This document shows positions 1,337 through 49,436 of a stretch of DNA of 64,000 bases, piece after piece. The stretch lies in the NCBI GenBank assembly GCA_938743325.2, contig OW568879.1, positions 620,001 through 684,000 on the forward strand. The letters are read 5' to 3'. The notes beneath the pieces were generated by a model. The model ran no database searches. It had not been told where the DNA came from and saw only the letters and a program-made list of their open reading frames with translations. This DNA is from Pycnococcus provasolii. Its lineage: Eukaryota > Chlorophyta > Pseudoscourfieldiophyceae > Pseudoscourfieldiales > Pycnococcaceae. The number at the start of each line of letters is the position of its first letter. Position 1 is the stretch's first letter. The position numbers were made by a program, and so were the translations under genes.

Positions 1337-1768
1337 CGCTCGCTGCGGTCGGTTGTGGTGATGGGGCCCGCTCGCTGCGTTGGGAAGAAGAAGAAGAAAG
1401 AGGGAGGGAGGGGTTTCTTCACATATCACATGACATAATGTGTCATAATGTGACATATCAGATATTTTCCTCCTCCTAACCCCTAACGCCCCAATCCAGG
1501 TTTTACCGAAAATATCGAAATCGGTTCCGATACGCGAACTAAAGATTATGTGACTCTTGGACTCTTTTTGTCGGACGTGACGACGCCATTTTTTATTCTT
1601 GGACTCTGTTTTTCGGAGACAATTATTTTTGGACTCATTCTGTCCAGTAACGAGGTATACAAATGATGTCAGAACCACGCCTTATGATGTCAGACCACGC
1701 CTTATCGCCAAATTTCGTGCGATATGCGATTCGACTCATCAGCACCACCACCACGACAAATACAAAAG
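1337..1768. other. Divergent spacer, Cys-rich gene / metalloprotease 1
   Basis: About 430 bp separate the two divergent ATGs. On the plus strand it holds an AAGAAGAAGAAG-type purine tract just upstream of the minus-strand gene (C/T-rich on that gene's coding strand) and a short telomere-like CCTAACCCCTAAC motif at 1475-1492. The right half is A/T-rich with no repeats. No coding content is supported. Confidence 0.5.
1475..1492 (-). repeat. Short telomere-like motif
   Basis: Two adjacent TTAGGG-like units, G-rich on the minus strand, about 140 bp upstream of the minus-strand ATG at 1336. One of a series of such motifs placed upstream of genes in this window, with the G-rich strand being the coding strand of the nearby gene. 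Confidence 0.45.
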
Positions 1769-3367
1769 ATGGCGGTCATGCTCTGCCGTACGACGAGTAG
1801 TTGTCTGGCAGTCGTCGTCGTCGTCATGCTCGTCGTCGCCAAGGTGGCTCATACCCGCCGGGATGTCGTCCGCAAGGGCAGGAGGTTGCCCAAAGGTGCT
1901 CGATTATTCGAGGGTGACATCATCATCAAGAGCGACTCCGATCGATGTCGTATGTCTCAGATGGGATACAACGTCAGCTTGCCAGAGGGTGGGTGCGACG
2001 AAGAGGAGAGCAGCCCACTCAGTTTCAAAAAGCGTGGCTCGCTGAGCTTTCGGTACCGAGGATATTACTGGCTGGACTACTATGACGCGAACTACCAACG
2101 CCCGAGCGGCAGGTCCGGCACGTACAAGATCCCGTACAGCTTCCAAAGCACATACCCCTATAGCAAGACGAAGATTCGCGACGCCCTCGCCGCTCTCTCA
2201 GCCGCAACGGACTACGCCGTCACGTTCGTCCGTCGGACCAACCAAGTGCGTTACATCCGAGTCGTCGATGGCGGTCGCGGTCGTTGCTGGTCATACATCG
2301 GAAAGAGATCATCCGGTACCTCCCAAGATCTTTCACTCGGAAAAAATTGTGTCAAGACACATACCATCCAACACGAGTTCATGCACGCGCTTGGGTTCTT
2401 TCACGAACAGTCACGCCCAGATCGTAATAGCAACGTGTTCATCCACTTCGGCAATATTAAAGCTGGCAAGGAATCCAACTTTGATACATCGCGCAGTATC
2501 GACAGCATGGGATCGAGTTACGACATCAAATCGATCATGCACTACAGTCCGAAGGCATGGTCAAGGAATGGTGCGCCTACCATTACTCGACGGGTCAACG
2601 GCTGCTCGCCAGCGGATATCGGAACAACAAAATACAAGTCCATTCCCGATAAGTGCAAGTACAGGAGAGGCAAGGTCTTGTCGGACTCTGACGCTGCACA
2701 GCTTCAGTTCATGTACGGATGTAGTCCAAGATCGACTCGACCATGTGAGGCCGTCGTCACGGTAGAGCAGACGTACTCGTACAGCACGGGATCGTGGGAG
2801 TCGTGCTCGAAGTCGTGCGGAGGAGGCACGCAGACGCGATCAGTCACCTGCGAAAGCTCGGACGGACAGAGCGTGGCGGAGTCGTCGTGCTCGGACTCGA
2901 AGCCGTCGACATCTCAGGCGTGCAACACGCAGGCATGCATCACGTACTCGTACAGCACGGGATCGTGGGAGTCGTGCTCGAAGTCGTGCGGAGGAGGCAC
3001 GCAGACGCGATCAGTCACCTGCGAAAGCTCGGACGGACAGAGCGTGGCGGAGTCGTCGTGCTCGGACTCGAAGCCGTCGACATCTCAGGCGTGCAACACG
3101 CAGGCATGCATCACGTACTCGTACAGCACGGGATCGTGGGAGTCGTGCTCGAAGTCGTGCGGAGGAGGCACGCAGACGCGATCAGTCACCTGCGAAAGCT
3201 CGGACGGACAGAGCGTGGCGGAGTCGTCGTGCTCGGACTCGAAGCCGTCGACATCTCAGGCGTGCAACACGCAGGCATGCTCGCCACCGCCGCCGCCGCC
3301 GCCGCCGCCACCGCCACCGCCGCTGCCGTCTTGGCTGCAGGGGCTGCTGGGAGGTTATGGCTTTTGA
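1769..3367 (+). CDS. Secreted astacin-like metalloprotease with 3 TSP1 repeats
   Basis: A 532-residue zinc endopeptidase of the astacin (M12A) family. A signal peptide (about residues 1-27) precedes a short propeptide with the astacin FxGD aspartate-switch motif (FEGD). The catalytic domain carries the extended zinc site HEFMHALGFFHE starting at residue 202, followed by the Met-turn SIMHY. Cysteines around GRCWSYIG match the astacin disulfide framework. Three TSP1 domains of 57 residues follow from residue 335, each with WESCSKSCGGGTQTRSVTC. They are identical in protein and nearly so in DNA. A polyproline run and a short tail, WLQGLLGGYGF, end the chain. The ATG at 1769 was chosen because it opens directly into the signal peptide; the ATG at 1778 aligns with the start of the downstream paralogue and is also possible. 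Substrate unknown; extracellular matrix or cell-wall processing is plausible. Confidence 0.88.
   Translation: MAVMLCRTTSSCLAVVVVVMLVVAKVAHTRRDVVRKGRRLPKGARLFEGDIIIKSDSDRCRMSQMGYNVSLPEGGCDEEESSPLSFKKRGSLSFRYRGYYWLDYYDANYQRPSGRSGTYKIPYSFQSTYPYSKTKIRDALAALSAATDYAVTFVRRTNQVRYIRVVDGGRGRCWSYIGKRSSGTSQDLSLGKNCVKTHTIQHEFMHALGFFHEQSRPDRNSNVFIHFGNIKAGKESNFDTSRSIDSMGSSYDIKSIMHYSPKAWSRNGAPTITRRVNGCSPADIGTTKYKSIPDKCKYRRGKVLSDSDAAQLQFMYGCSPRSTRPCEAVVTVEQTYSYSTGSWESCSKSCGGGTQTRSVTCESSDGQSVAESSCSDSKPSTSQACNTQACITYSYSTGSWESCSKSCGGGTQTRSVTCESSDGQSVAESSCSDSKPSTSQACNTQACITYSYSTGSWESCSKSCGGGTQTRSVTCESSDGQSVAESSCSDSKPSTSQACNTQACSPPPPPPPPPPPPPLPSWLQGLLGGYGF
2771..3280 (+). repeat. Three tandem 171-bp TSP1-coding repeats
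   Basis: Units begin at 2771, 2942 and 3113 with the same bases and show no difference that I could find up to the point where the third runs into the polyproline segment. Each encodes one 57-residue TSP1 domain. Near-perfect identity at synonymous positions means recent expansion or ongoing gene conversion. Confidence 0.9.
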
Positions 3368-3427
3368 CTGGAAGTCTTTCTAGAAAAAGCCAAAGAAGAA
3401 GCCCAAGAAAACGAGTGAAAAACCCTT

Positions 3428-3577
3428 GAGGGCTTGAACACACACGAACGAATAATACATACTGGGACACTGACACCCAGAGAGAAGAGTGAGAGAAACC
3501 GTTTGTTGCAAAACTCAACTGTTTGTTGCTGAACATTGCAGATGTTCTAGTTTTTCTTTTCGTTTAGGTTTTGTAAT
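3428..3577 (+). repeat. 3' flank shared by both metalloprotease genes, copy 1
   Basis: This segment begins GAGGGCTTGAACACACACGA and runs to a TGTAA motif. It matches 5805-5946 behind the second gene with a few substitutions and short indels. It shows that the duplication that made the pair included the 3' untranslated region, and that the copies are young enough for untranslated DNA to still align. Confidence 0.85.
3572..3576 (+). terminator. Candidate TGTAA poly(A) signal, metalloprotease 1
   Basis: TGTAA at the end of the conserved 3' flank, about 205 bp after the stop. The same motif in the same context sits at 5941-5945 behind the paralogue, which strengthens the reading as a cleavage/polyadenylation signal. 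Confidence 0.5.
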
Positions 3578-3871
3578 CACGCACGAGTCAGTAGTCACGA
3601 GTCACACAGGCTAACTATTTCCTGAAATCAATCATCACAGTAATCAATCAATCTTTCTAGAATTTTCAAGACGACGTGTAATTTCTGGACAGCCGCGCCA
3701 ACCAAGCCCAACCGACGTATGTCGCCCTGGAGCCCGCCATGGGGCCCACCATGCCCATGCCCATGGGGGTGAGTGAGCTTGGAACATCCATGCCAACATG
3801 CCAACAATGATGGGACGTTTTATTTCATGGAGAAAGGGTGTCTGTCCCCAGTGGTTCAGCCAGGAAAAAAT

Positions 3872-5781: not shown

Positions 5782-5804
5782 GACTTAAGAATAACTACCT
5801 TGAG

Positions 5805-5946
5805 GAGGGCTTGAACACACACGAATAATACATACTGGGACACTGACAGCCAGAGAGAAGGGTGAGAGAAACCGTTTGTTGCAAAACTCAATTTTTGCTG
5901 AACACTGCAGATGTTCTAGTTTTTCTTTTCGTTTTGGTTTTGTAAT
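5805..5946 (+). repeat. 3' flank shared by both metalloprotease genes, copy 2
   Basis: Counterpart of 3428-3577. It is close in sequence, differing by small indels such as loss of a CTGTTTGTTG-like stretch. It ends at TGTAA 5941-5945 immediately before the convergent 3' end of the photolyase/hydrolase gene. Confidence 0.85.
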
Positions 5947-5988: not shown

Positions 5989-8286
5989 TTAAGAAACTTT
6001 CATTATAAAGCTGTGGATCGCCTCCGCCACTTCCTGAGGAGCCTCGTCGTGTGGGCAATGGCCAGCCTCCAATGGGACGCGCACGAGAGACCCGTTCTCC
6101 TCAGAAGCCACCTCCAAATACATGCCATAACGTTTCGCCGCCTGCCCGCCTCCCAACGGGTCATTCATCCCGGTCGCCACCAAAACGCGACCACCGTACC
6201 CCTCCATGAGCTCATTCTTCGTGATTGGAGTGGGCAACTTCGCTCCAGATGTGAGGACGTTCACCGCGCCAGGATCATTGCTATCTCGCAAAATGTTCTT
6301 CGTGAGCGAATCGTCAACAGCATCAGGATTGTTCGGGTACACCTGCCTGCATATTCTCGCGATGTTTGGCTGCAAATAGGCGAACAGCGCACGGCCTCCC
6401 GCCGTCAAAAGCCAGCTTGGCGGCGGCTTGAGCGGCTCCAAGATATCCGCGCCATCCTCTGCCATCGCCACGGCGAGAGTTCGCCCACCACGGGACGCGC
6501 GCTCCGCAGCTTCCTCCTCGCGCGTGATGAGACGTCCGGCACTATTGAGCAGAATCACACCAACGCACGTCTTCTTGCCGAGGGATGCAGCCGCGCTCAT
6601 GGCGGTGTATCCTCCAATCGAGTTGCCCGCCAGGTACGAGGGCTGGCAAACAACCTGTTTGACGAAGTCGCACACGAGCTGCTCCCAGAGATACTGCGTG
6701 TACGATATTGGCGGTTTTTGTGCGTGCCCAAATCCAATGAGGTCCACCGCATAGCACGTGTGACCTTTTGTGGCAAGCTCTTCCATGAGATCGTCCCACT
6801 GGCGAGCGGATGCACCGAACCCGTGCACACAAACGACGGGTGCGCTAGACGATGATTGGCGCCCAGCTTCGGGCTCGATGGTGGTGTATCTGACGTAGAA
6901 CCCGTGCCACTTCCAATAGTGCACCTTCACCCGTGAAGTTGAGCCAGTGCTGTCCTGCAACAGATCGTGCCATGCAAGCCGACGATGCCACTCGTTCGCC
7001 TCCACCTGCTGAACGGACGCCTCGAGCGTCGCGAGAGACTCGTCCCAGCTCAGCAGCGGAACAAGCTCACGTTCGATGGGAGCACGCAGGGCAGCACGCA
7101 CCTCGCGCGCGCTGATCGTGCCGAACGCGAGTTGCGTCTGCAGAACACGCGTGATTGGCTCGGCACGGTTTAGTGCCTTCGCCGCAAGAACGCGGGCCAT
7201 CGCGACGTGTTCTCGAGGCTGCCCCCCACTCGCGGGAAGGGTAAGCGGCAGGTGCTTCGCCTGAAAGGATGACGACGATAGCTCAACGGCATCTTTGAGC
7301 AGCTGCAGTGCATGGGCGGTACCAGCGATAGGCTCGCTCAGCCAGATTTCGCTTCCCTCGTCCACGTCTCCTGGCAGGTGCTGTCTTGCGTCACGCCACG
7401 CGGCGAGAACCTCGTCCACCGTTGGCATGCATGTTTCATTTGGAGTTGTCGACGACGACGACGGCAGTTTGTCAGGCGCAGGCTGTGGCGTATCGGCAGC
7501 CGGGACGAGCGCTTCATATCCAGCGTAGCTGACGTATTCCCGGTAGTCTGTGCTGACAGAGGCGAGGGAAGCGCGGTCGAGCGGTCCAAGTCCATCTGAC
7601 CAAAGCGCGTTGGGGAACGAGGCGACGGCGCGCCGGTCGTGCTCGTAGTGCACGGGGTCGGTATGAGCGACGACAACGTCGAATTCTTTGGGAAAGTCGG
7701 CAAGAAACTGCGCAGTTTCCCCGACGGCGACGTGCAAGGTGGCGTTGAGTTTCTGTTTGAGGTCCCCTGCAAGGTTTTCCACCGCACTGTGAAGTGCTCT
7801 GACGTCCCTCGCGCTCATGCACGCGAGTTTGTGCGTGTCGAACACGAAAGCGGTGTGGACATCAGATGTGCACACTTGACAGGCGACTCGCAGTCCTGCG
7901 TGGTCGTGTACTCTCAGGTCATTTATTGTGAAGAGCACTAACGCAGATTTTGCTTTTGCTGATGACGCGTTTGGTATCACAGGCAATAAAGGTGGGAGTG
8001 CAGCAGATGAAGATGAAGATGAAGATGAGGAGGAGGGTGATGTGACTGCAGATGCTGAATATGCTGATGCCGACCCCCTAAGGAACGTCCGATTCTTCTT
8101 TAAAAAGGTAACCTTACCATGACCACGAAACGTATGTGATATGATGGATGATGGGAAACATGAAGGTGAAGATGCGTGTTTCCGAATATTATTCAAGGAG
8201 GTATGCAGACGCTTGTGAATGTGCGTTCTTGATGAAGATGAAGATGACAATGAGGGGGAGTGGGAGTGGGCCATCATCACCACCAT
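5989..8286 (-). CDS. Photolyase N-domain / alpha-beta hydrolase fusion, probably plastid
   Basis: A 765-residue protein. The N-terminus is rich in Ser, Arg and His, as in an organelle transit peptide. A DNA-photolyase alpha/beta (antenna-domain) Rossmann-like part follows, recognised by LVLFTINDLRVHDHAGL and the later VVVAHTDP and LWSDGLGPL stretches. The C-terminal half is an alpha/beta hydrolase: oxyanion segment VHGFGASARQW, nucleophile elbow GNSIGGY, acid in GMNDPLGG and His in EAGHCPHD. The photolyase FAD-binding C-domain is absent, so it should not repair DNA. The same fusion is known in plants (Arabidopsis At4g25290 type); the hydrolase half resembles the pheophytinase/CLD1 group acting on chlorophyll-like esters. 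Substrate is inference. The ATG at 8286 was chosen; ATGs at 8277 and 8274 are also possible, and the frame's extension to 8445 has no supporting feature. Confidence 0.85.
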   Translation of the reverse strand: MVVMMAHSHSPSLSSSSSSRTHIHKRLHTSLNNIRKHASSPSCFPSSIISHTFRGHGKVTFLKKNRTFLRGSASAYSASAVTSPSSSSSSSSSSAALPPLLPVIPNASSAKAKSALVLFTINDLRVHDHAGLRVACQVCTSDVHTAFVFDTHKLACMSARDVRALHSAVENLAGDLKQKLNATLHVAVGETAQFLADFPKEFDVVVAHTDPVHYEHDRRAVASFPNALWSDGLGPLDRASLASVSTDYREYVSYAGYEALVPAADTPQPAPDKLPSSSSTTPNETCMPTVDEVLAAWRDARQHLPGDVDEGSEIWLSEPIAGTAHALQLLKDAVELSSSSFQAKHLPLTLPASGGQPREHVAMARVLAAKALNRAEPITRVLQTQLAFGTISAREVRAALRAPIERELVPLLSWDESLATLEASVQQVEANEWHRRLAWHDLLQDSTGSTSRVKVHYWKWHGFYVRYTTIEPEAGRQSSSSAPVVCVHGFGASARQWDDLMEELATKGHTCYAVDLIGFGHAQKPPISYTQYLWEQLVCDFVKQVVCQPSYLAGNSIGGYTAMSAAASLGKKTCVGVILLNSAGRLITREEEAAERASRGGRTLAVAMAEDGADILEPLKPPPSWLLTAGGRALFAYLQPNIARICRQVYPNNPDAVDDSLTKNILRDSNDPGAVNVLTSGAKLPTPITKNELMEGYGGRVLVATGMNDPLGGGQAAKRYGMYLEVASEENGSLVRVPLEAGHCPHDEAPQEVAEAIHSFIMKVS

Positions 8287-8474: not shown

Positions 8475-8540
8475 CACCCTAAACCTCGACCCTAACCCCT
8501 AATAACCCAAACCCCTAACCCCTAATCCAAACCCCTAATT
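8475..8540 (-). repeat. Degenerate telomere-like array
   Basis: CCCTAA and CCCCTAAT/CCCCTAACC variants on the plus strand, so TTAGGG-like on the minus strand. It is about 190-255 bp upstream of the photolyase-fusion ATG, in that gene's orientation. Confidence 0.7.
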
Positions 8541-11033: not shown

Positions 11034-14000
11034 CTACATCTCCTTGCTTGGCTTCTTGAATTTGAAAGAGACGATGAGTTTCTTCGCAGGAGGTGCCTCC
11101 GCCGCTTCGGTTGGTTTCAATGTTGTCGTCGTCGCCGCCGCCGCCGCCGCCACCGCCGCAGCCGCAGCCGCAACAATGGGAGGATTTTGCGGTGGCAGAA
11201 TGGGTGCGGCTGCATTTGCAGCGATTCCTCCGTGTTCACCTGCCGTTGTTGTCTCCATAAAGATAGGTGGGTCGCCTTCCTTGACCGCGGGAGCGGCGGA
11301 TAACGATGGCAGAGGCTTCAGACCATTCCGTTTTCGATCTATGTTTTCTGCAGTGCGCAAGTCCCTCGCATGCTTGTTCTTCTCCTCTTTCGAACGTTCC
11401 TCCGGAGGAGGCAAGGCTCCAATGCCAGGTTCGTCCTCCTCGAAAGCAGCCACGGCAAGCTCGTTGCCCTCACCGTACTTGTTGGTCCATTCCTTGTTGA
11501 AAAGATTTTCCATCAATTCTGCCGAGTGATAGCAAGGCGTTCCGGCAGGATTGATGAGCTTGACATTTGAAAACACGAGAAGAATGTCACGGCGAACCTG
11601 CGCAAGATTTGTGTAGCGCACGCCAGGGACCTGCGCCTTCGACGATGGAAGGGCGGCGAGAGTCGGCACAGGACCCTCCACACCACCTTCAACGTCCATT
11701 TTCACAGCACCTGCATGTGAGCTAGCCAAAACCTCCTCACCTCCTCCTCCGGCAGCAGCGCGATGGATGTCGCGTTTGAGGTGCGTCTTGATTGTGCCGA
11801 GGTCCATTGGCCGCTTGATGACGTTGTAGTAGCCTGGACATCCCCACTTCAAATCAGTAGGTAACCAAGGATCAACCTTCTTGTCAAACCATTCCATGTG
11901 TGGTCGGTGTTTCGGGGCAATTTTATTCGTCATCGCCATCAGAATGTTTAGAGCTTTCTGCAGCTTTTTCTGCGTCGGATCTTCAACCGGTTTCGCCTTC
12001 TTCTTTAGCGAAGCGCTGCTCCGTTGACGCTTCATGGATGGAGAGACTTGGTCACGAGGTACAGCCGCAATGCGTTTGCGCTTACCCACCGAAGGAATTC
12101 CCGCAGGCTCGGGAACATCGGAAAATTCCCATTGCACCGAATCACCGCTGTTGTGGCCCATGAGATCGTGCTCGTCGTACTCACCATCGTCGTAGAGAAC
12201 TTTGAACGTCATCTTCTTGGTAAAGTAATGGCTGATCGTACCCGTAATCATCTTATCGGTCGTATTCTCTGGTGCAGCCTCGTTCTTATCAGCTGGCCTT
12301 GTCCAGCCGGGAGGGCATGGCTGACCTTGCGCTCGAGCCTGTGCCTGATCCTCCTCGCTGGGCACATAGCTGATCCAGCGCACGGCGACGCGCTTACCCA
12401 CCATCGCATTGCCCTCTTCGATCAGCTTGCGCCTGCGCTCCTTCTCCTTCTGCTGCGCGCTGTTCGGCTGCGGGCTGTTCGGCGCGCTGTGCTGCGCTGT
12501 GCTGCGCTGTTCGGGCGTCCTCTCCGTCTCCGTGGGGCGATTTTTAAAACTGATTTTCAGTTTCCCACGGAATTTCATCGCATTCTGCCTTCGCTGTTGG
12601 TTGATCATATTCTGAGAATCTTGCAATTTGATCTTCTTCACTCTTGATTTCAATTGCGCCGCAGCCTGCAAGTCAGGTAAGAGGTACGCGGGCGCCGAGC
12701 AGAGTGCGCGAAGAAGACGAAAGCAGGCGAGTCGAAAAGACGCGTCCGAGGAAGCAATCTCGTGGACCTTGTATTGATTCGTGAGCACAGCTTCTCGCTG
12801 TTTGGGAATCTTTTCGCCCTCAATACCCTTCAGGGCATCGTCACTTCCCCAGGTGGTTGCCGCATCCTCCATCAGCCAGTCGGGAACGCCGTCCACGGCT
12901 AGTTGGGGGCCAGCAAATGAATTCCCGCCGCCGCCACGCGCTTCTGAAAGCGCTGGCATGTCCGCGGCGAAAATAGCACGAGCGAGAAGGCGAAACGTCT
13001 TGCGGACTCTAGTTTCGTCTGTGCCAGGCATAAGTTTTCCGATGTTTGCTTTGGAAGCTGTCACAGCAGAGTCATGCGAGCTCTCAAACCACTCCTCCGC
13101 GAACGACGTCGCCTCCGCGAGCAACGCTAGGCGTAGGGCACGTTCCGACGTGTCGCCAAGCTGGTTCCCCATCTCACTTTCGCCGCTATTCTTTCGCCAT
13201 CCGAACACAGCCTTGGCTATCGCAGACTGCGCAACGCTGTAAGCTCTGAACAAGGTGGCGTCTTGGTTCTTCACTGCATACGGCTGGAGCCATAGCCAAC
13301 ACCGCTGTGCCTCAAGACGAACTGCCAAGCCATTACCCGTGTCGGACACGATCTGCTCGCACAGTGAGCATGCATACTTCACGGCTGTCAATCGTTTATC
13401 CTTTGGGGCTTTCGAAGGCGTGGCGTCTGCAGTGACACCATGTGGTGCAGCGCTTGATGGTGCGAGCGCAAGTGCAAGGTCGCACAACGCACGTATACCG
13501 TGCCTGAGAGCCGTCTGCGCATCCTCGAATGCTACGCCGCTCGACCCGCCGCTGAGCCAGCTTGCACGGCGGACGTGCCTTTCAACTGCCGTGCACAGTT
13601 TCTTCCAGACGTCTCTCTCCTTCGGGCGGCAGCGCCCCGCAGCCACAAGAAGTCCACTGAGACGCTCTGCGTCGAATGGCGCGTCGCTGAAGCTTCCCAT
13701 GGCGGGTGACGGAACGAGAGCAGGGGCGTCAAAATATTTCTCAAGCGCGTGGATGATAGGCTCGCAGCTTTTCTGCGGCGTGTACCGTCCATCCGACGTG
13801 CCCACTAGAGTCTCCGCGAGACCAACTGCCACAACGCGGCTCTCGAGATTCCACGCAGCCATTGCCACGCCTGGTCGTGGTGCCGGCAGGCTGCGAAGAT
13901 CTTTCTGCGCATGGAGCTCGCAGAAATGGTTCACCTGAAAGCGCTGGCGCATGAATCCCACAATACCTTGCACGCAGGGCGCCCTGCTGTTTCGCCCACC

Positions 14001-17000
14001 CTCCACAGGGAGCAACGAACCATCGGATGAACGATGCCGCCAGATTAGCATTCGATCACGAGCGGCGGCGGAATCCCCGCCACGAATCATCGTGACGAGT
14101 GCACCATACGCCGCGCACCTCAAGCGCACGTGCGTCTCTCTCTGTGGCCCGTCGCCAGCCCTGTGTGCATCCCTGGCTGCGTTCTTGCCGTAGAGATTGT
14201 GCACACCGTGCACGCCCGCACCGCTGCCGTCATCGGCAGCCATGGCCATAAGTATGCTGACCGCCTGGTATCCCAGGTCATCTCTCATACGCAAAGATTC
14301 ACTAACATCCATGGACATGTTATTCATGCACTCGACAAGGCAGCCAGGCGCATGGACGGAGGATGTAGCTTGACCGTCGGCCGCGGAAGTCCCCTCGCCC
14401 GCATCCGTGGCTGCTGAACCATCGAAAGCCGATCGAAAGCTTGCCGATCTGCAGGCGCGAAGCAGCGAGTGCACGCTTGACACCCAGCTCGCCTCCTTCT
14501 GTCTCAGAACAATCTCAGCGGACCACTCGCCGTCCGGATCGACCTCGACGGATACGCCGGCACGCTTGCAGTTCTTGTAGTTGAGATCCTCCGGAATCTG
14601 AAACGATCCCATGCGGCGCTTACCATCCACCACTGGCGCAAGAGTGGGGAGTTCTGCCCCTGTCGCTTTCGCCTCTGCAATCAGCCGTTGATTCTCCTCT
14701 TCGGCAGCCGCCTTGGCGCGCTCCCGCTCCATGTCACGCTTGCGCTTCTTCTGGTACGCTGTCACTCTCTTCACCTGCCCAACAGCCGCCAGCTTGCCTT
14801 GAATGTCTCCAAGACGATCGCCGAAATTTTTGAACTTTTCGCGCAAATCGGGATGGAACAAGTGCGAGCCTTTCGAACCCTCCTCAGGCGCAACGACGTA
14901 AAAGTGGTCTGCAGCATTGCCATCGCGTTCGCGCACGCGCACTTTCAGAACACAGCCACCGCCGTATCCTTCAACCGCGCTCTTGAACGCCGTCCTCGCC
15001 GGTTCGGTTACGCACACTCGAACTGCGAGATTGACACGCTTTTTCTTATCATCAGTCGAGTGGCCAGCCTCGAGCCGCGTGTATCCCATTCCGATCAGTT
15101 CGCGAAACTTCAGCACGCGCTCAAAGCTGTCATCCATGTGATTCATGCGCGATTTACACTCCTCCACAAGATCCGTCGTTTTCATCGTGACGGTTTTCGC
15201 ACATGCGAATTCTGTCGCAAGCTGTGAAACGTCGCCGGTAACGTGCTCGGCAAGGTAGCGCGCGAACGGTGAATTCGCGTCTGCGGCACGCCACGGATTT
15301 TTGCGAAAGTTCAAAGCAAGTCGCTTCAGAACGACACGAAGAGGCGTATCAGCAGCCTTTGAGCTGGCATTGTGTCTGAGGTTGCCTTTCTCGTACTTTC
15401 GGAGTAAAAGCGCTGCTCGCGCAAGGTTTTGAGAATACTCGAGCGTGCACTCACCGAGAGGATCTTCTCCGCCGAATGGACTGCACAATCTACTCGCCTG
15501 TGCATCGCCAAGTGGTACATACCCATACTCAGGCGTTCCAATTGGCAGTGCCAGGCTAGATGAACAAGACCGCGCGCGCATGTCCCACGCGTACGCAATC
15601 TCGTTCTTTTCAGCCGTTTCTGGATTCTGCGGCGAGCCGTAGTCCGCGTAGCTAAGTGGCGGGCACCCGCGCCGCAAGCTCAGCATGCTGTGATGGCGTC
15701 TACGCCTTGCGCGCACGTCAATCTCCGCCTTTCCGACCCACGGAAGTTCAAATGTGCGCTCGCACCAGGTCAGCGCTAGGGCGTCGAGGAGCCAATTGTC
15801 ACAGCTTGCTTGATCGGGAGACAGAAATGACAGGAAAAATGCACGTGTCACTGTGACAGCAATCTCACGCAGTGCGGACATGTGATGGTGGGGGCAAGCC
15901 AGCGACGACAGCCTTTCCGCTCCCACAATAATGTGCATGCCATGCGGCGGTGGAAGCGAAGTGCACCTGGGTGGCATGGTACTGTGCGGGATGACAATAA
16001 CACGCAGTGGGACGGCTGCGCACGGTCCGGCAGGTGCTGCGTCGTCAGCGTCATCTTCGTCATCGACGTCATTCTTGTTCTTCTCGCGATCGCTTTCCTT
16101 CACAGCGGTGATGTCCATCGCAACGTCTCCGTCCGCATCAAGACTAGTATTGGCAACAGCTCCCGCTGCTGGTCGGCGTATGGATCCAACCTGCTTGTCC
16201 AGCGCGGCAAGCAGCTGCGCAAGCCAACCTCGCAGCGATGCGACGCTTGCGGGAAGTCCATGCACAAACACGGGGAGGTGCTCCACCTCCACATCGTGGA
16301 ATGCTGGCTTTGCGCCAAATGATCCAACAATCACCAGCATCTGCTCCACATTCGTCGGCGTGGCGACAAAGAAGCGGCACGTCGTGCGTTCGACACATTC
16401 GCTGCTCACCATCGTTGACGCACCGGGTGCCAGCACCAGCTCGCGGCTTGACATTCGAGCCGCGGGAGCGACATGAGCGGCGGCTACAGAATCATGCTCC
16501 ACCTCCACCACCCACGTGCACGGCAAGCCGACTATGCAGGGTGTCCAGCTTGGCGCCGCTCCAGGTTCGTCCGACGTGTAGACTGTCGTTCCATGTTTTC
16601 CGTGTACCCAAAGCCAACCCGAGCATTTGTTCGTTTCGACTTCGAAGTGAACGTCCACGGTGCACGTTGAGACGTGAGCACTTCTTCCTGGCCAAGCAAA
16701 TAAGACGTCGGGTGCCTTACGTGCGCAGACGAGCGACTGCGCGAGCGCGTCGCGAACCTCGTTCGATGCCTGCTCAGCCTGCAGTGTGGTGGGCTGACTC
16801 GACGCTATGTGCGCAATTTTTTCAAAAGCGTCCTGCTTTCTATATTGCCACTTGTCGCGCGAAAGTCCAGGCCACTGCGAGCGCAGGCATGTTTCCACCG
16901 GCTTTCCGTCGACGAGCGTGCGTTCGATCCGCAGCCCCGCCTTTGCGTGGAACCCGACCACATCGTTCACGGCAAGCGAAGACGCGTTCACGGCAAACGA

Positions 17001-17195
17001 CAGAACGCCCGCAATCCTCCTGCTATTGCTATTACCTGTTCCTTCGCCATCAAAACCAACAGAGAGGCGGAGCGTGCAGTGAGAGACGGGCAGGAGCAGG
17101 AAAGGGGGAGAGAGGGAGGAGGCACGAGATGCACCTGAAGCGCCTCCTCCTGAAGCTCCGAATGATGCTGCTGCTGCTGCTGCTGCTGCTGCCAT
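11034..17195 (-). CDS. TAF2: TAF2-like TFIID subunit with Tudor-like segment and bromodomain
   Basis: A 2,053-residue protein in one frame, starting at the ATG at 17195 within a GCA/GCT alanine run (an upstream GTG-initiated extension is not needed). The N-terminal half resembles TAF2: an M1-aminopeptidase-like fold without an HExxH zinc site, including WLLDALALTWCERTF. This is followed by a basic coiled coil (about 810-850) and long helical-repeat regions. At about 1600-1680 lies a Tudor/PWWP-like segment (GKRVAVRW ... TFKVLYDDGEYDEHDL). At about 1765-1900 lies a bromodomain with GYYNVIKRPMDLGTIKTHL and a later VFSNVKLINPAG. The asparagine that contacts acetyl-lysine is the N in INPAG. A glycine-rich insert of about 55 residues separates helices A and B. 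Poly-Ala follows near the C-terminus. Expected role: core-promoter binding within TFIID. The chromatin-reader tail suggests direct nucleosome recognition. The TAF2 assignment is fairly firm for architecture, less so residue by residue. Confidence 0.8.
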   Translation of the reverse strand: MAAAAAAAAASFGASGGGASGASRASSLSPPFLLLPVSHCTLRLSVGFDGEGTGNSNSRRIAGVLSFAVNASSLAVNDVVGFHAKAGLRIERTLVDGKPVETCLRSQWPGLSRDKWQYRKQDAFEKIAHIASSQPTTLQAEQASNEVRDALAQSLVCARKAPDVLFAWPGRSAHVSTCTVDVHFEVETNKCSGWLWVHGKHGTTVYTSDEPGAAPSWTPCIVGLPCTWVVEVEHDSVAAAHVAPAARMSSRELVLAPGASTMVSSECVERTTCRFFVATPTNVEQMLVIVGSFGAKPAFHDVEVEHLPVFVHGLPASVASLRGWLAQLLAALDKQVGSIRRPAAGAVANTSLDADGDVAMDITAVKESDREKNKNDVDDEDDADDAAPAGPCAAVPLRVIVIPHSTMPPRCTSLPPPHGMHIIVGAERLSSLACPHHHMSALREIAVTVTRAFFLSFLSPDQASCDNWLLDALALTWCERTFELPWVGKAEIDVRARRRRHHSMLSLRRGCPPLSYADYGSPQNPETAEKNEIAYAWDMRARSCSSSLALPIGTPEYGYVPLGDAQASRLCSPFGGEDPLGECTLEYSQNLARAALLLRKYEKGNLRHNASSKAADTPLRVVLKRLALNFRKNPWRAADANSPFARYLAEHVTGDVSQLATEFACAKTVTMKTTDLVEECKSRMNHMDDSFERVLKFRELIGMGYTRLEAGHSTDDKKKRVNLAVRVCVTEPARTAFKSAVEGYGGGCVLKVRVRERDGNAADHFYVVAPEEGSKGSHLFHPDLREKFKNFGDRLGDIQGKLAAVGQVKRVTAYQKKRKRDMERERAKAAAEEENQRLIAEAKATGAELPTLAPVVDGKRRMGSFQIPEDLNYKNCKRAGVSVEVDPDGEWSAEIVLRQKEASWVSSVHSLLRACRSASFRSAFDGSAATDAGEGTSAADGQATSSVHAPGCLVECMNNMSMDVSESLRMRDDLGYQAVSILMAMAADDGSGAGVHGVHNLYGKNAARDAHRAGDGPQRETHVRLRCAAYGALVTMIRGGDSAAARDRMLIWRHRSSDGSLLPVEGGRNSRAPCVQGIVGFMRQRFQVNHFCELHAQKDLRSLPAPRPGVAMAAWNLESRVVAVGLAETLVGTSDGRYTPQKSCEPIIHALEKYFDAPALVPSPAMGSFSDAPFDAERLSGLLVAAGRCRPKERDVWKKLCTAVERHVRRASWLSGGSSGVAFEDAQTALRHGIRALCDLALALAPSSAAPHGVTADATPSKAPKDKRLTAVKYACSLCEQIVSDTGNGLAVRLEAQRCWLWLQPYAVKNQDATLFRAYSVAQSAIAKAVFGWRKNSGESEMGNQLGDTSERALRLALLAEATSFAEEWFESSHDSAVTASKANIGKLMPGTDETRVRKTFRLLARAIFAADMPALSEARGGGGNSFAGPQLAVDGVPDWLMEDAATTWGSDDALKGIEGEKIPKQREAVLTNQYKVHEIASSDASFRLACFRLLRALCSAPAYLLPDLQAAAQLKSRVKKIKLQDSQNMINQQRRQNAMKFRGKLKISFKNRPTETERTPEQRSTAQHSAPNSPQPNSAQQKEKERRRKLIEEGNAMVGKRVAVRWISYVPSEEDQAQARAQGQPCPPGWTRPADKNEAAPENTTDKMITGTISHYFTKKMTFKVLYDDGEYDEHDLMGHNSGDSVQWEFSDVPEPAGIPSVGKRKRIAAVPRDQVSPSMKRQRSSASLKKKAKPVEDPTQKKLQKALNILMAMTNKIAPKHRPHMEWFDKKVDPWLPTDLKWGCPGYYNVIKRPMDLGTIKTHLKRDIHRAAAGGGGEEVLASSHAGAVKMDVEGGVEGPVPTLAALPSSKAQVPGVRYTNLAQVRRDILLVFSNVKLINPAGTPCYHSAELMENLFNKEWTNKYGEGNELAVAAFEEDEPGIGALPPPEERSKEEKNKHARDLRTAENIDRKRNGLKPLPSLSAAPAVKEGDPPIFMETTTAGEHGGIAANAAAPILPPQNPPIVAAAAAAVAAAAAATTTTLKPTEAAEAPPAKKLIVSFKFKKPSKEM

Positions 17196-17351: not shown

Positions 17352-17373
17352 CCCCTAATCAGAACCCCTAATC
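17352..17373 (-). repeat. Short telomere-like motif upstream of TAF2
   Basis: Two CCCCTAATC units on the plus strand, about 160 bp upstream of the TAF2 ATG. The G-rich strand is the TAF2 coding strand. A run of C (on the coding strand) lies between it and the ATG. Confidence 0.5.
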
Positions 17374-21484: not shown

Positions 21485-21613
21485 TTCAAGTTCTCGCCTA
21501 ACACCTCGGGGGTGAGGTCAAACTTGTCCTGAAGGGTTCCGTAGGTGAGTGAACCTGCGGAAGGATTGTTATGTGCTGTACCCATTTGAAAGGAACCCTA
21601 AGGTAGGGTACGC

Positions 21614-23072: not shown

Positions 23073-23164
23073 GGCGAAAAATCAAAATCCGAAAAAAGGT
23101 GAACAAGGCAAATCCAACAACCAAACAACAAGGGGGAAACCAAACCCAAAAAAAGGCCCTCAAA

Positions 23165-23202: not shown

Positions 23203-23291
23203 ACCCCCCTGTGGCCCCTCCCCCTCCAATTAACGGTCCCCGGGACCCTCCCCCTAGTGGACTGGCTCATCCTCCTCGCACTCGCACTCGC

Positions 23292-34418: not shown

Positions 34419-34990
34419 GAAGAACACTCCCTCAATGATGATGATGGTGAGTTCCCAGGGCGAAGAAGAAGAAGAAGAAGAAAAGAAAAGCCTCGGGAAA
34501 GGGAAACGGTTTCGGGGTTTCTTTCGGGGTTCGCATATTCCAGTTACGATAGGGGTTTCAGTTCGTTCGGGGTTTGGTTTCAGTTAAGTCGGGGTTTCAG
34601 TTAAGGTAGGGGTTTCAGTTCGTTCGGGGTTTCAGTTCGTTCGGGGTTTCAGTTCGTTCGGGGTTTGGTTTCAGTTCGGGGTTTCAGTTCGGGGTTTCAA
34701 CAGTTCGGGGTTTCCATAACCTGTTCCATAGGGCTCCGGCTTGAGGTGGTGGGCTTCATTCCGCTTCCTTCCGGGGGGGAGTTCCGAACCGAACGAAGCA
34801 AGTCGACCAGTAGGGTCGGGGACTCCCAAGGTGGAAAAGCATAACCTTATGGTCGAGCGCCGCCACCCCCAGGCAGGAAAAGGCCGTGTCCCTTTTCCCT
34901 TCCCTGACAAGCCTGAGTGAGTTTCGAGAATTTAACAACATCCGTAAGTACCTGCCGCCATACACTGCAGTACTACTTCCTTTCCTGATC
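34419..34990. other. Divergent spacer, DFGxF gene / SRP40
   Basis: About 570 bp. Purine-rich GAAGAAG repeats next to the DFGxF gene (C/T-rich on its coding strand) are followed by the G-rich TTCGGGGTTTCAG array (34511-34712) and then a C/T-rich leader before the SRP40 ATG at 34991. The short frames here are not supported. Confidence 0.55.
34511..34712 (+). repeat. TTCGGGG-type tandem array
   Basis: Roughly a dozen GGGGTTTCAGTTCGTTC or GGGGTTTCAGTT units of irregular length. Each contains TTCGGGGTTT or a near variant (AAGTCGGGG, AAGGTAGGGG). The G-rich strand is the SRP40 coding strand, about 280-480 bp upstream of its ATG. Confidence 0.8.
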
Positions 34991-36607: not shown

Positions 36608-37087
36608 CTAAGGGAGTTGCTCTTCTTCCGAGTCTTCTTCTTCCCCCTGGCCAGGCACCTGGATTTCTTGAATTTCCACCACCACCTCCTCCTCTCCCTC
36701 CTGCTCCTGCTCTTTTTCCTCTCCAGTAGAACTATTTTCTCGTACTACCATGTGGTATATACCAACTACCGGGCAGCCTGATGAGGTCTTTAGCCTGAAG
36801 GTGATAGGGTCCCTCCATGGACCTGGTCCCTTTACCACCCTGGTACAGTATTGCTTTTCTTTTTCGCGAGCGTTCCTTCCGACCTTCCCCGCAGAAGGCT
36901 CCTTTTCCCTCGGCCTCGGCCGGCCCCTCCAGGTGGGGTTAGGGTTACCCGGTAAGGTTAGGAGGAAAGCCGCGCATATTCTTGCCTTATTCTTTTTCTC
37001 ACGCATTACTCCCATTAGCATTCTTCGAGGCTCGTCCCTGGAGCTTGCTTTTCTGCCAGGCGAAGCACGCCCCTCTGATTTCCTCAT
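36608..37087 (-). CDS. Uncertain open frame with acidic C-terminus
   Basis: A 159-residue frame from ATG 37087. The N-terminal half is basic and low in information. The C-terminal half (WRDPITFRLKTSSGCPVVG, then a Glu-rich tail ending EEEQLP) looks more protein-like. Its start lies only 15 bp from the Kelch gene ATG on the other strand, which leaves no room for a promoter, and it runs through a telomere-like motif. It may be the terminal exon of a spliced gene or simply an open frame. No family recognised. Confidence 0.2.
   Translation of the reverse strand: MRKSEGRASPGRKASSRDEPRRMLMGVMREKKNKARICAAFLLTLPGNPNPTWRGRPRPREKEPSAGKVGRNAREKEKQYCTRVVKGPGPWRDPITFRLKTSSGCPVVGIYHMVVRENSSTGEEKEQEQEGEEEVVVEIQEIQVPGQGEEEDSEEEQLP
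36934..36960 (+). repeat. Short telomere-like motif upstream of Kelch gene
   Basis: GGGGTTAGGGTTACCCGG followed by TAAGGTTAGG, about 140-170 bp upstream of the Kelch ATG and G-rich on its coding strand. Confidence 0.5.
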
Positions 37088-38286: not shown

Positions 38287-38460
38287 GTGACTTATTACCA
38301 AAAACAAAACACACACAACTTGCTGGCCATGGCCGTGCTTATGCCATGCAGGCAACGAGCTGACAGACACGTCGGCCTCTGCGCACATGTGGCGACATAC
38401 TGTATTGTAATGTGTGGTGGGAGACCGACCCCTAAGTTTTTAATACAAGGACGGAATTCG

Positions 38461-38495
38461 GGGTTAGGGTTAGGGTTAGGGTTAGGGTTAGGGTT
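38461..38495 (+). repeat. Interstitial (TTAGGG)n array
   Basis: Five to six perfect GGGTTA units, G-rich on the RAB3GAP1 coding strand, 106-140 bp upstream of its ATG. Confidence 0.9.
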
Positions 38496-38600
38496 ATGTT
38501 GTTCCCGCCCCTGCTGACGTGCTCGCCCTTCCCCTCCCTCTCCCCCTCCTCCCCCTGCTCGAATCATTCTGCTCCATGCCCGCTGTGCCGCTTCGTCGCC

Positions 38601-41379: not shown

Positions 41380-41393
41380 CCCCTAACCCTAAC
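41380..41393 (-). repeat. Telomere-like motif between convergent genes
   Basis: Two CCCTAA units on the plus strand. Unlike the others it lies between two gene 3' ends, with no known start codon it could serve. Confidence 0.5.
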
Positions 41394-42861: not shown

Positions 42862-43338
42862 GATATGATTCGTTGATGAGCGATGAGGAGGATGATGAAC
42901 CCAATAATGGACCGAACGACTGGTGGGGGAGGGGAGATGTTCACAGGACAGGAAGGTGTGTGTGGATAAGAAAAGAACAAGAGCTCGGCCCAGGCCCAGG
43001 GGGAAGATCTTTGGGGGGACTGTAGCCCTAACCCTAACCCTAGCCCTAACCCTAACAACTGGGTTAGGGGTTAGAAGTAGGGGTTAGAAGTAACTAGGGG
43101 TTAGGGGTTTCTTCTCGTGCTTGGCACGCGTGGCCGTGGCCCGGTGGGGTAAGAAGCCTTTGGGTTTTATAGTTCGGATCTGCTCCCTGCTGGTCGTGTT
43201 CCTCGGGCCCGGTCCTCCGATCTCGACTTCTCTCATTGAGCATTGGTACTCTCCACCGCTCCACGAAGTCTCATTCCCTTGTACCAACCACTACTCTCAC
43301 CACGTGGTCGTCCTTGCTCGGAATTCCAAAATAAGGAC
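42862..43338. other. Divergent spacer, SDR39U1 / UFC1
   Basis: About 480 bp. The telomere-like array in the middle changes strand at about 43058: the part nearer SDR39U1 is G-rich on its coding strand, the part nearer UFC1 is G-rich on the plus strand. The SDR39U1 leader side has a GGTGGGGGAGGGGAG run (C/T-rich on its coding strand). No coding content beyond a GTG-type opening of the UFC1 frame. Confidence 0.65.
43026..43110. repeat. Bidirectional telomere-like array
   Basis: Five CCCTAA-type units (43026-43057) are followed by about five GGGGTTAG units (43061-43110). The polarity flip falls inside a divergent promoter region, so that each half is G-rich on the coding strand of the gene it faces. 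Confidence 0.8.
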
Positions 43339-44682: not shown

Positions 44683-46134
44683 CTATGACGCGCGCGGGTA
44701 AAACACGTCGAGCGTCTTGGCGGGAATGCGACGCAGCATGTCTCTCGGGAAGATGCGGAGCAGCTGCCACGCGATGTCCAAGCTCTGGTAGATGGTGCGC
44801 TTCTCGTACGCGCCCTGCGTCACAAACGTGCTCTCAAACTTATCCAGAAACTCCAAGTACAGCAAATCTTCCTGGCTCAGAGCCTCCTCGCCAACCACAG
44901 CCTTCATCGACAGCACGTCCTTCGCAATTGCATAGCACGCATAGAGCTGGTTTGACACCTCGCCGTGGTCCCTCCGCGTCATACCCTCGCCCACGGCGCT
45001 CTTCATCAACCTCGACAGGCTCGGAAGCACGTTGATCGGTGGGTACACCTGCCGGTTGTTCAGCGCGCGCTCGACGTAGATCTGACCCTCGGTGATGTAT
45101 CCAGTCAGGTCAGGGATGGGGTGCGTGATGTCGTCGTTCGGCATCGTCAAAATGGGAAGCTGCGTGATGGACCCCTTGCACCCCTTGATGCGACCGGCAC
45201 GCTCGTAAATCGTCGCAAGGTCCGTGTACATGTACCCGGGATATCCGCGCCGACCTGGAACCTCCTCGCGTGCCGCACTCACCTCGCGAAGCGCGTCCGC
45301 GTAACTACTCATGTCCGTCAATATCACGAGCACGTGTTTCCCCCTCTCGTACGCGAGGTACTCGGCAACCGTCAGTGCGATGCGCGGCGTGACGATGCGC
45401 TCGATGGTCGGGTCGTTCGCTAAGTTGAGGAAAAGCACGGTGTGTCCCATGGCACCGTTCTCCTCAAAGTCGCGCTGAAAGAAAGACGCGGTCTCCATGT
45501 TCACTCCCATGGCGGCAAACACAAGGCAGAACTCGTCACCTTCGTCGCCGTCGCCGTCTTCTTCACCCTCCGGTCGCACGAGACCCGCTTGCCTGCAAAT
45601 CTGCGCGGCGATGGCGTTGTGCGGCAAACCTGCGGCGGAGAAGAGCGGGATTTTCTGGCCACGTGCGATGCTGTTCATGACGTCAATTGTCGAGATTCCC
45701 GTGCATATCATCTCCTCGGGGTACGTGCGCTCCGCGGGGTTGATGGGCGACCCGTTAATGTCGCGGTACGCCTCGGGTAAGATGGGTGGCCCGCCGTCGA
45801 TGGGCTTCCCCGAGCCGTTAAAGACGCGCCCGAGCATGTCCTCCGCGACTGGCGTGTGCATGGTCTGCCCTGTGAATGTGACCGTAGTGGACGTCGTGTC
45901 GACTCCCGACGTCCCCTCGAATACCTGCACGACCGCCCGTTCTCCGTCCGCCTCGAGCACCTGTCCTCTTCGCACGGATCCGTCACCGAGCTTGATGTTA
46001 ACGATTTCGGCGTACATGGGTGCGCGCACGTTGTCGAGCACCACGAGAGGTCCGGCGACGGCGCACACGGTTCTGTACGCGACGTGCGGCGAGCACGCGT
46101 ACGCCGGAGCATCCTCCGAGGAGGAGGACGCCAT
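44683..46134 (-). CDS. V-type ATPase subunit B
   Basis: A 483-residue regulatory (non-catalytic) subunit of the V1 sector, which acidifies vacuoles and Golgi. The family sequence is complete: [74 protein letters not shown] and [18 protein letters not shown]. It lacks the catalytic Walker A lysine loop, as usual for B subunits. Divergence is mainly in an acidic insert (about 195-205). Length matches plants (about 488). The ATG at 46134 begins MASSSSE. Confidence 0.97.
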
Positions 46135-46572
46135 TTGCCGAAATGATGGGATGGAAAAAGGAGGGGGGCGAGGGAGGAGGGCAGGAGGAGTGGGCGGGAG
46201 GGGAAACCGTTCACAGAGGAATCCCCAAAGAACACAATCCTAAATAGCCCTGGCATGATGTCACATGATGTCACTGGGCCGGGCCTCACAAACCGGGGAA
46301 CTTCCCGACAAACGGACGATTGCGTCCGAGGAGGCGAATTGCACTGAACTGCTTCTCACCACGGGCAACAAAGAGGACCCGGGGACCGTTCGGAGGGATG
46401 GTAGAAATTAGAATAATAATACCCTAGTTAAGAAGTACTTCTTACCCTAACATTACGTCACTTCCCTACGTCCCGTCCCCTTCCATTGTTTTTGATTAAT
46501 TTTTGTTTTGACCACCTTTTTCAACGCACTTTCTCACCGGCCCTCCCCCTTCGAGGATTTTGTTCCTCAGCC
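46135..46572. other. Divergent spacer, V-ATPase B / Cys-rich gene
   Basis: About 440 bp. Next to the V-ATPase ATG the plus strand is purine-rich (GGAGGGGGGCGAGGGAGG), so its leader is C/T-rich. Around 46418-46455 are two CCCTA motifs, G-rich on the V-ATPase strand. The right end is a C/T-rich leader for the plus-strand gene. No coding content. Confidence 0.5.
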
Positions 46573-47980: not shown

Positions 47981-49114
47981 TTATGCGACGGTATCCTTGA
48001 GCTCGCCGCTCGATGCCATCTCCTCGATGATGTCACATCCGCCCACAAGCTCGCCGTCCACATACAGCTGCGGGTACGTCGGCCAGCTGCTGTAGCTCTT
48101 CAAGCCCTCGCGCACGTCTTGCATGTCCTCCGCGAGGATGTCCACATGCGCGAAGTTCGAGCACCCCGCGCCGTTCAGCGCCGCGACGACGCGCCGCGAG
48201 AAGCCGCACCGCGGTTCGTCCGGCACACCCTTCATGAAGAGCACCACCTTGTCTCCGTGAATGAGGCTTTCAATTTTCGCAGTCAGCGGATCTTTTCCAA
48301 GCGTATCCTTGAGCTCGCCGCTCGATGCCATCTCCTCGATGATGTCACATCCGCCCACAAGCTCGCCGTCCACATACAGCTGTGGGTACGTCGGCCAGCT
48401 GCTGTAGCTCTTCAAGCCCTCGCGCACGTCTTGCATGTCCTCCGCGAGGATGTCCACATGCGCGAAGCTCGAGCACTCCGCGCCGTTCAGCGCCGCGACG
48501 ACGCGCCGCGAGAAGCCGCACCGCGGTTCGTCCGGCACACCCTTCATGAAGAGCACCACCTTGTCTCCGTGAATGAGGCTTTCAATTTTCGCAGTCAGCG
48601 GGTCCTTTCCTGTTGTCGTCGTGTGTGTGGTCGTGGTTGCTTCGTTCGGTTCCCCGAGAGCAGCCTTGACAGCGTCTGCGACCCCCTTGACGTCTGCTCC
48701 GTTAATTTTGGAGACGACGGCCCACCCTTCGTCGTTCAAGGGTGCGCCTGTCGCCGCCTTGTTATTTTTCGCGACGACAACGAACGTGGGCACCGCAGTG
48801 ACGTCGAAGAGTTCGCACGCGTCCGGTTGTTCTTCCGCGTCCGCTTCGAGTATGAGTAGCGTTGGGTACTGCGCCGCGATGAGCGCGAGCGGCTGCGGCA
48901 TGGCGCGGCACGGTTCGCACCACGGCGCTGAGAAGTAGAAGAGCAGAGCGTCCGCTGTGTAAGCGTTGTCGTCGTGGAGATGAGCTGCGATACATTTTTT
49001 GTCCCCCAGAGCGTCGAGTACATTTGTTGTTATGGATTTCGCATTCGCCGAGGATGCCCCTGAGGCGGAAGACAGCAGGCGCAGGTTGTTTTGTGGAGAA
49101 GTTGACATGGCCAT
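47981..49114 (-). CDS. Monothiol glutaredoxin, Trx-Grx-Grx (GRXS17/Grx3 type)
   Basis: A 377-residue Fe-S trafficking glutaredoxin. A thioredoxin-like domain with FYFSAPWCEPCRAM (about 60-76) is followed by two monothiol Grx domains, each with the CGFS motif in PDEPRCGFSRRVV and the GSH-binding segment WPTYPQLYVDGELVGGCDI. The two Grx domains differ by only a few residues. It resembles the PICOT/Grx3 and plant GRXS17 class, which delivers 2Fe-2S clusters and controls iron regulation in cytosol and nucleus. Start ATG 49114 or 49108; a TTG-opened extension was rejected. The Trx CEPC site is unusual: many class members have a degenerate AxxC site. Confidence 0.93.
   Translation of the reverse strand: MAMSTSPQNNLRLLSSASGASSANAKSITTNVLDALGDKKCIAAHLHDDNAYTADALLFYFSAPWCEPCRAMPQPLALIAAQYPTLLILEADAEEQPDACELFDVTAVPTFVVVAKNNKAATGAPLNDEGWAVVSKINGADVKGVADAVKAALGEPNEATTTTHTTTTGKDPLTAKIESLIHGDKVVLFMKGVPDEPRCGFSRRVVAALNGAECSSFAHVDILAEDMQDVREGLKSYSSWPTYPQLYVDGELVGGCDIIEEMASSGELKDTLGKDPLTAKIESLIHGDKVVLFMKGVPDEPRCGFSRRVVAALNGAGCSNFAHVDILAEDMQDVREGLKSYSSWPTYPQLYVDGELVGGCDIIEEMASSGELKDTVA
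47991..48610 (-). repeat. Duplicated Grx-coding segment, 2 x about 312 bp
   Basis: The DNA at 47991-48302 recurs at 48303-48610 with only a handful of base differences, including in silent positions. The unit encodes a complete Grx domain plus linker (104 residues). Confidence 0.93.
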
Positions 49115-49182
49115 GAGGATGGAGGAAGGGGGAGGGGGAAACAACAACAAGAGCCTTCGAAGTCACGTGACTTCTCCCCCGA

Positions 49183-49238
49183 ACCCTAACCCTAACACAT
49201 AACCCTAACCCTAATGTCTAACTCTAACCCTAACTCCC
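49183..49238 (-). repeat. Telomere-like array, glutaredoxin side
   Basis: About eight CCCTAA-type units on the plus strand, G-rich on the glutaredoxin coding strand, about 70-125 bp upstream of its ATG. Confidence 0.85.
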
Positions 49239-49398
49239 TGAAGATAGATGGTCCCAGCCTGTTCGTGGTCCTTCCGGGGTTCGGTAAGCCCCAGGGGATC
49301 GTTCCCTTTATTATTCCAGAACTCCGGGGCTCGGGGGGAGGGAAGAAAGTGGGAAGAACTCCTTCCGAAATGCTTCCGAAAAGATTCAAGATTCCTTA

Positions 49399-49436
49399 TT
49401 CGGGGTTCGGGGTTCGGGGTTCGGGGTTCGGGGTTA
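49399..49436 (+). repeat. TTCGGGG tandem array
   Basis: Five perfect TTCGGGG units, G-rich on the TrpF coding strand, about 155-190 bp upstream of its ATG. Together with the array at 49183-49238 it gives each divergent gene its own G-rich element. Confidence 0.85.

Follow-up and report, generated by a model that had tools for sequence, protein, structure and literature searches.

Telomere-like repeat clusters built from TTAGGG, TTAGGGG and TTCGGGG units stand in the spacers before many unrelated genes of the green alga Pycnococcus provasolii, in a 64-kb stretch of contig OW568879.1 (positions 620,001 to 684,000; hereafter the window, numbered from its first base). These clusters lie closer to start codons than random placement predicts, and a fixed polarity, with the G-rich strand running with the gene, is suggested by the arrays in which it can be judged. 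We read them, with a probability of roughly 45%, as putative promoter-proximal binding platforms of the Tbf1 or telo-box kind.

The window is gene-dense, with a GC content of 57%. Comparable traits occur in pelagophyte algae, Pelagomonas being described with TTAGGG telomeres and 0.45 introns per gene, but its genome is richer in GC at 63% (PMC9481584). As a gene set, 25 non-overlapping open reading frames (ORFs) were chosen by hand from the ORF list, mostly from the first ATG and with introns disregarded; they cover 85% of the sequence. Eukaryotic proteins recognized by Pfam include EMC4, GLTP, UFC1, the Rab3-GTPase catalytic subunit (RAB3GAP1), SRP40, APS kinase and a V-type ATPase subunit. 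The names TAF2 and SDR39U1 are labels of an initial annotation of this DNA; Pfam finds only a bromodomain in the former gene and an epimerase/DUF1731 protein in the latter. A scan with 7-mers of TTAGGG, TTAGGGG, TTCGGGG and TTCGGG units returned 14 segments, whereas 60 dinucleotide-shuffled versions (1-kb blocks) averaged 1.1 and never exceeded 4. One segment within a coding gene (45716-45741; 14 bases covered) was excluded, leaving 13 clusters outside coding sequence, and the weak cluster at 1470, below the scan threshold, was added by hand to give the following working set of 14:

1470-1492, minus strand: weak cluster, TTAGGGGTTAGG on the minus strand; divergent spacer, 13 bp from a start.
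8476-8538, minus strand: mixed TTAGGG/TTAGGGG cluster; divergent spacer, 189 bp upstream of the photolyase-hydrolase gene (5989-8286, minus).
17352-17371, minus strand: two TTAGGGG units; tandem spacer, 156 bp upstream of the TAF2-labelled gene (11034-17195, minus).
19406-19501, plus strand: degenerate TTAGGG cluster; between an RsmB/F-type methyltransferase gene (minus) and the APS kinase gene (plus), 126 and 129 bp from their starts.
21614-21694, plus strand: TTAGGG array; tandem spacer, 76 bp upstream of EMC4 (21771-22286, plus).
23164-23202, minus strand: TTAGGG array; between GLTP (minus) and a BNR-repeat gene (plus), 91 and 89 bp from their starts.
34511-34712, plus strand: TTCGGGG-type minisatellite; G-rich strand matches the SRP40 gene (34991, plus, 278 bp), with a minus-strand start nearer (34418, 92 bp).
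36935-36962, plus strand: short TTAGGG cluster; tandem spacer, 139 bp upstream of a Kelch gene (37102, plus).
38457-38496, plus strand: TTCGGGG, then a perfect TTAGGG run; tandem spacer, 104 bp upstream of the likely RAB3GAP1 start (38601, plus).
41380-41393, minus strand: short cluster CCCCTAACCCTAAC; convergent spacer, possibly a chance occurrence.
43026-43056, minus strand: TTAGGG array, left half of an outward pair, on the side of the epimerase/DUF1731 gene (SDR39U1 label).
43061-43109, plus strand: degenerate cluster rich in four-G units, right half of the same pair, on the UFC1 side.
49177-49234, minus strand: TTAGGG array with interruptions, 62 bp upstream of a thioredoxin-glutaredoxin gene (minus).
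49399-49436, plus strand: perfect TTCGGGG array of 5.3 copies, 153 bp upstream of the TrpF gene (plus).

As a set, the clusters are real, and repeats of the kind described by the initial annotation are present at all 12 places that it listed, only weakly so at 1475. Because single segments in shuffled sequence reach 26 bases in the combined scan, and 17 with TTAGGG/TTAGGGG units alone, the clusters at 17352 (17 bases), 36935 (20), 41380 (14) and also 1470 are individually within chance in the combined scan; 36935 exceeds chance in the scan restricted to TTAGGG/TTAGGGG units. With respect to the adopted genes, 21 of 23 TTAGGG copies and 27 of 32 CCCTAA copies fall outside coding sequence. Two start codons bear on the distances given above. 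For RAB3GAP1 the second in-frame ATG (38601) was taken as the start, since the first (38496) touches the array and is followed, up to the second, by codons that score as non-coding. The cluster at 1470 would be ~134 bp from its gene if the second in-frame ATG were used, but the first (1456) was kept in the counts despite the non-coding-like codons between the two.

The midpoints of the clusters lie within 250 bp of a start codon in 13 of 14 cases, against 7.7 expected from random placement in spacers (P = 0.002), 55% of spacer bases falling within that distance. As a control, Tandem Repeats Finder rows were compared after merging overlaps and with four short clusters excluded, that at 41380 among them: all ten telomeric arrays were within 250 bp of a start, compared to 8 of 15 other spacer repeats (P = 0.013), one of the latter (28850-28881) holding a TTCGGGG-like unit although classed as non-telomeric. 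Clusters occur in 11 of 15 spacers with a gene 5' end and in 1 of 9 convergent spacers (P = 0.009), the convergent spacers being short. Ranked by enrichment score in the 25 upstream regions, which overlap in divergent spacers, TTAGGG comes first among hexamers; it is found in sense orientation in 12 of the regions and antisense in 9. Position and hexamer enrichment together back the earlier proposal of a promoter-associated element. A cluster on the matching strand lies upstream of 13 of the 25 genes. Measured to the adopted start of the matching gene, the distance is 62-278 bp in 12 of 13 arrays, where the initial annotation gave mostly 60-250 bp before the ATG; for the cluster at 1470 it is 13 bp.

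Polarity was assessed using the 13 arrays of the initial annotation (the 12 places, with 43026-43110 counted as two). Nine of these are in divergent spacers, where the proposed rule, that the G-rich strand is always the coding strand of the gene downstream, cannot fail because either strand codes for some downstream gene. The informative cases are therefore the four arrays in tandem spacers (17352, 21614, 36935 and 38457), in each of which the G-rich strand runs with the gene downstream, and the two divergent spacers that hold a pair of arrays (43026/43061 and 49177/49399), both outward-facing. Concordance of all six has P = 0.004 (1/256) one-sided and 0.008 two-sided, or 1/64 without the two short tandem arrays. 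The polarity flip inside a divergent promoter was confirmed at 43026-43109, where the halves are only 4 bp apart and may derive from one event.

Local composition was rejected as the cause of the polarity: once the arrays are masked, the 150 bp that precede ATGs are rich in C and T on the sense strand, the opposite of the arrays, with a GC skew of -0.31 at 0-50 bp and -0.23 at 50-100 bp. The mean pyrimidine fraction of the sense strand is 0.64 at 0-60 bp compared to 0.48 at 120-250 bp, resembling plant Y patches. A stretch of 25 bases with at least 80% pyrimidine occurs in each of the 12 examinable array-to-ATG gaps (of 13; an uncontrolled count).

The repeat units differ between and within clusters. 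Among 80 G-runs in the 14 clusters, 44 follow TTA and 17 follow TTC (61 of 80 together), though spacing varies; run lengths are 3 (46), 4 (33) and 5 (1). Some arrays are uniform, with TTCGGGG throughout 49399-49435 and TTAGGG throughout 38461-38496 (both 100% matches), and the TTAGGG run at 21640 is near-perfect (96% matches). G-runs are all of four in 34511-34712 and all of three in 43026-43056, and the clusters at 8476 and 43061 mix units. As a single telomerase template is not expected to yield all of these unit types, at least some arrays probably expanded locally, and the pure TTCGGGG array at 49399 beside TTAGGG arrays speaks for such growth in place. By eye, an interruption of the form GGGTTA-NN-TGTTAGGG is common to 19406-19501, 23164-23202 and 49177-49234. 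Stretches of AGAAGTA and TAACTAGGG were likewise seen by eye next to telomere-type motifs in both the 43061-43109 cluster and the spacer 46135-46572 (~46445).

One array carries a possible trace of its origin, a piece of 18S ribosomal RNA (rRNA) sequence on the same strand:

21532-21566, plus strand: 18S rRNA 3'-end fragment with a 4-base insertion, 47 bp upstream of the EMC4 array.

The fragment corresponds to positions 1780-1831 of Rfam model RF01960 with E = 0.063 in a 66-base search and was not among the matches of longer searches. Direct alignment to 18S rRNA scored 24.0, compared to a best of 14.5 for 60 random windows with the same dinucleotide make-up. The idea that the clusters belong to a known RNA was rejected: nothing reached Rfam gathering scores, no tRNA was found by ARAGORN, and the other weak matches were judged to be chance. 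Ribosomal DNA (rDNA) is reportedly subtelomeric in the protist Aurantiochytrium. Since the fragment lies beside the array and junctions between rDNA and telomeres have been described, a chromosome-end origin of the EMC4 array is plausible. Such direct joining is described for Arabidopsis (PMC9498494).

The closest parallel to the clusters is found in Saccharomyces cerevisiae, where Tbf1 is reported to bind several clustered TTAGGG motifs in any orientation and spacing at ~300 protein-coding loci (PMC2834713). As there, several irregularly spaced TTAGGG copies are found here in many promoters of protein genes; unlike there, orientation looks biased, some tandems are perfect, and TTAGGGG and TTCGGGG units occur as well. 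Tbf1 and Vid22 are also reported to promote the expansion of long interstitial TTAGGG repeats (PMC9272169). The Candida albicans Tbf1 palindrome TTAGGG-N6-CCCTAA at ribosomal protein genes (PMC2834713) likewise places a telomere-type core in promoters, but is described as strictly inward, whereas the two pairs here face outward.

The plant telo-box AAACCCTA, to which TRB proteins bind (PMC10167121), is concentrated in 5' regions, and an origin through telomerase at open promoters has been proposed for it (PMC3022908). Like the present clusters, it places a telomere-like motif no more than a few hundred bp from the ATG, and orientation preference has been reported for it near starts; the units here are TTAGGG, TTAGGGG or TTCGGGG instead, mostly clustered. 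The telo-box core AAACCCTA, with its TTTAGGG unit, is all but missing: TTTAGGG/CCCTAAA occurs twice in 64 kb, once inside a cluster. In Arabidopsis, AAACCCTARH is described as having an orientation preference in the 50 bp upstream without an effect on expression, the share of core motifs with such a preference is given as not above random controls, and at least two telo-box copies are counted in 146 of the 1472 genes that have the motif (PMC4778318). The statement of the initial annotation that the telo-box is a single short motif, unreported in array form or with polarity, is thus too strong, as clustered TTAGGG promoters are known from S. cerevisiae Tbf1 (PMC2834713) and an orientation preference has been reported in Arabidopsis (PMC4778318).

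Site II motifs (TGGGCY), with which the plant telo-box is associated, show no excess in the joined spacers (11 compared to 8.3 expected); the 400 bp upstream hold no such motif in 9 of 13 array-gene pairs and one or two in the remaining 4. No ribosomal protein family was found among the 27 ORFs scanned with Pfam; RsmB/F-type methyltransferase and SRP40 genes flank two clusters. Among the matches listed in a search of the open-licence literature, mostly titles and abstracts, there was no report of oriented TTAGGG arrays upstream of many protist genes.

Several observations weigh against binding platforms with a fixed orientation. When each cluster is assigned to its nearest start, only 9 of 14 match in strand (P = 0.13, not significant); 19406 and 23164 are equidistant from both starts within 3 bp, and 34511 and 43061 are nearer the non-matching gene. 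The claim that the G-rich strand is always the coding strand stands literally for the 13 arrays, but nine of them are uninformative and the case for it reduces to the six concordant ones. Isolated CCCTAA copies in tandem spacers (4131, 21596 and 38430), absent from the initial annotation, are opposite to the downstream gene in 3 of 3 cases; a fourth copy (46445) is in a divergent spacer. The convergent-spacer cluster at 41380, equally absent from the earlier list, is a counter-example, and being too short for Tandem Repeats Finder it does not enter the comparison made with that tool. Per spacer base, the avoidance of convergent spacers is not significant in the 64-kb window (P = 0.22). The genes bearing clusters have no evident common function, the 18S fragment points to captured debris at one locus, and the Tbf1 precedent does not explain polarity because S. 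cerevisiae Tbf1, as described, has no orientation requirement.

The clusters may instead be scars of DNA repair, left where telomerase or end-joining inserted telomere repeats and other chromosome-end DNA at promoters, as regions that often break or are nicked, with no function in expression. We regard this as possible but doubtful. Their orientation would follow if extension took place at the coding-strand 3' end on the promoter side, and the 18S fragment beside the EMC4 array, the perfect TTAGGG run at 38461 and the near-perfect one at 21640 are what such events might leave. In a published model for plants, telomerase extends free 3' ends located at open promoters and in R-loops (PMC3022908), and in mammals insertion at double-strand breaks, sometimes together with other sequence, is described (PMC7215372). 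From the former we infer that a strand bias could result, so that the initial annotation's argument that random telomere-repair insertions would lack polarity is wrong or too strong: a repair origin need not be unpolarized. The mammalian short interstitial telomeric sequences resemble the present clusters in their short (TTAGGG)n runs, sometimes with other inserted DNA, but their distribution is ascribed to random insertion (PMC7215372), whereas the clusters here are concentrated before genes; placement regardless of genes, as expected of repair-inserted interstitial telomeric sequence, was not observed. TTCGGGG arrays would also be unexpected from a TTAGGG template, cores are intact in the degenerate clusters, and the matching clusters at 13 of 25 genes also speak against scars.

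It is quite unlikely that the arrays are ordinary microsatellites tolerated in the open 5' regions of a compact genome, their polarity an accident of small numbers. Twelve of 15 non-telomeric spacer repeats are likewise in spacers with a gene 5' end, only six cases inform on orientation while the other counts are not significant, and Gaspin et al. describe a parallel 5' enrichment of microsatellites and telo boxes (PMC3022908). Yet ten Tandem Repeats Finder arrays of one motif family occur in 64 kb, and these are nearer starts than the other tandem repeats. Still lower odds go to a structural element in which the G-rich non-template strand forms a G-quadruplex or R-loop, an option raised by the initial annotation and weakly disfavored here. 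G-quadruplex motifs are overlapped by 6 of 14 clusters, leaving 8 without overlap of the searched pattern, and the motif at 23196-23224 mixes array and non-array sequence. Both non-array motifs in tandem spacers (21703 and 38526) are on the template strand, so that G-richness on the coding strand is no general rule, as far as these very few cases go; the motif at 8329, in a divergent spacer, is on the template strand of a gene 42 bp away and the coding strand of one 574 bp away.

Among the options put forward in the initial annotation, a TRF/Myb-type factor appears to fit best. In the promoter-platform reading, a putative telomere-repeat-binding Myb-type protein would bind TTAGGG and TTAGGGG and tolerate TTCGGGG. 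Positioned ~60-280 bp before the start codon, upstream of the pyrimidine-rich zone, it would help to keep the promoters of unrelated genes, mostly housekeeping ones, open for transcription. Its sites may have begun either as captured DNA from telomere ends, which at EMC4 would have brought along a piece of 18S rRNA sequence, or as point mutations, and would then have grown by local slippage, leaving units that differ between neighboring arrays. The bias of the G-rich strand to run with the gene could reflect an asymmetric bound factor or an asymmetric seeding event.

Apart from these promoters, a viral contig collection contains 17 stretches matching a four-TTAGGG pattern and 26 matching a three-TTCGGGG pattern. 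Array positions were recorded for every one of these and the ORFs of L008, L010 and L014 inspected, but none entered the data on the clusters. TTAGGG-type clusters outside ORFs of at least 80 amino acids are present in its contigs L014 (6034-6079 and 6416-6463) and L010 (904-951 and 1288-1333). The ORFs of L014 look phage-like by eye; if they are, such arrays arise also where telomerase is not expected. Relatives of two genes of the window were sought in the collection, with one 15-residue match for UFC1 (in contig L044, which has no clusters) and none for the V-type ATPase subunit; neither search yielded a usable relative. Within the window, the gene at 5989-8286 (minus) combines in one ORF a DNA photolyase domain at the N terminus and an alpha/beta hydrolase domain at the C terminus. 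Recent in-gene duplication is seen in a thrombospondin-type gene (2771-3280; three 171-bp copies, 100% matches) and in a glutaredoxin gene (47991-48610; two 312-bp copies, 98% matches). The spacers after two astacin/thrombospondin-type genes (3428-3577 and 5805-5946) share 91% identity over 150 alignment columns.

The part of these results that would be new is the fixed-polarity rule, which has modest support. In its strongest form, which we consider unlikely, telomere-repeat arrays of fixed orientation, derived from chromosome ends and then lengthened in place, would serve as a general promoter element at about half of all promoters. If this were true, gene expression genome-wide and the telomeres would have a protein in common, and transcription in divergent promoters would take its direction from that of the array. 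Yeasts and plants are known to have telomere-like motifs in promoters, and their telomere proteins also act as transcription regulators. Longer and possibly oriented arrays before many genes of a further genome would suggest that telomere proteins take on this second role repeatedly, and would be numerous enough to distinguish selection from repair as what determines where the arrays lie and on which strand.

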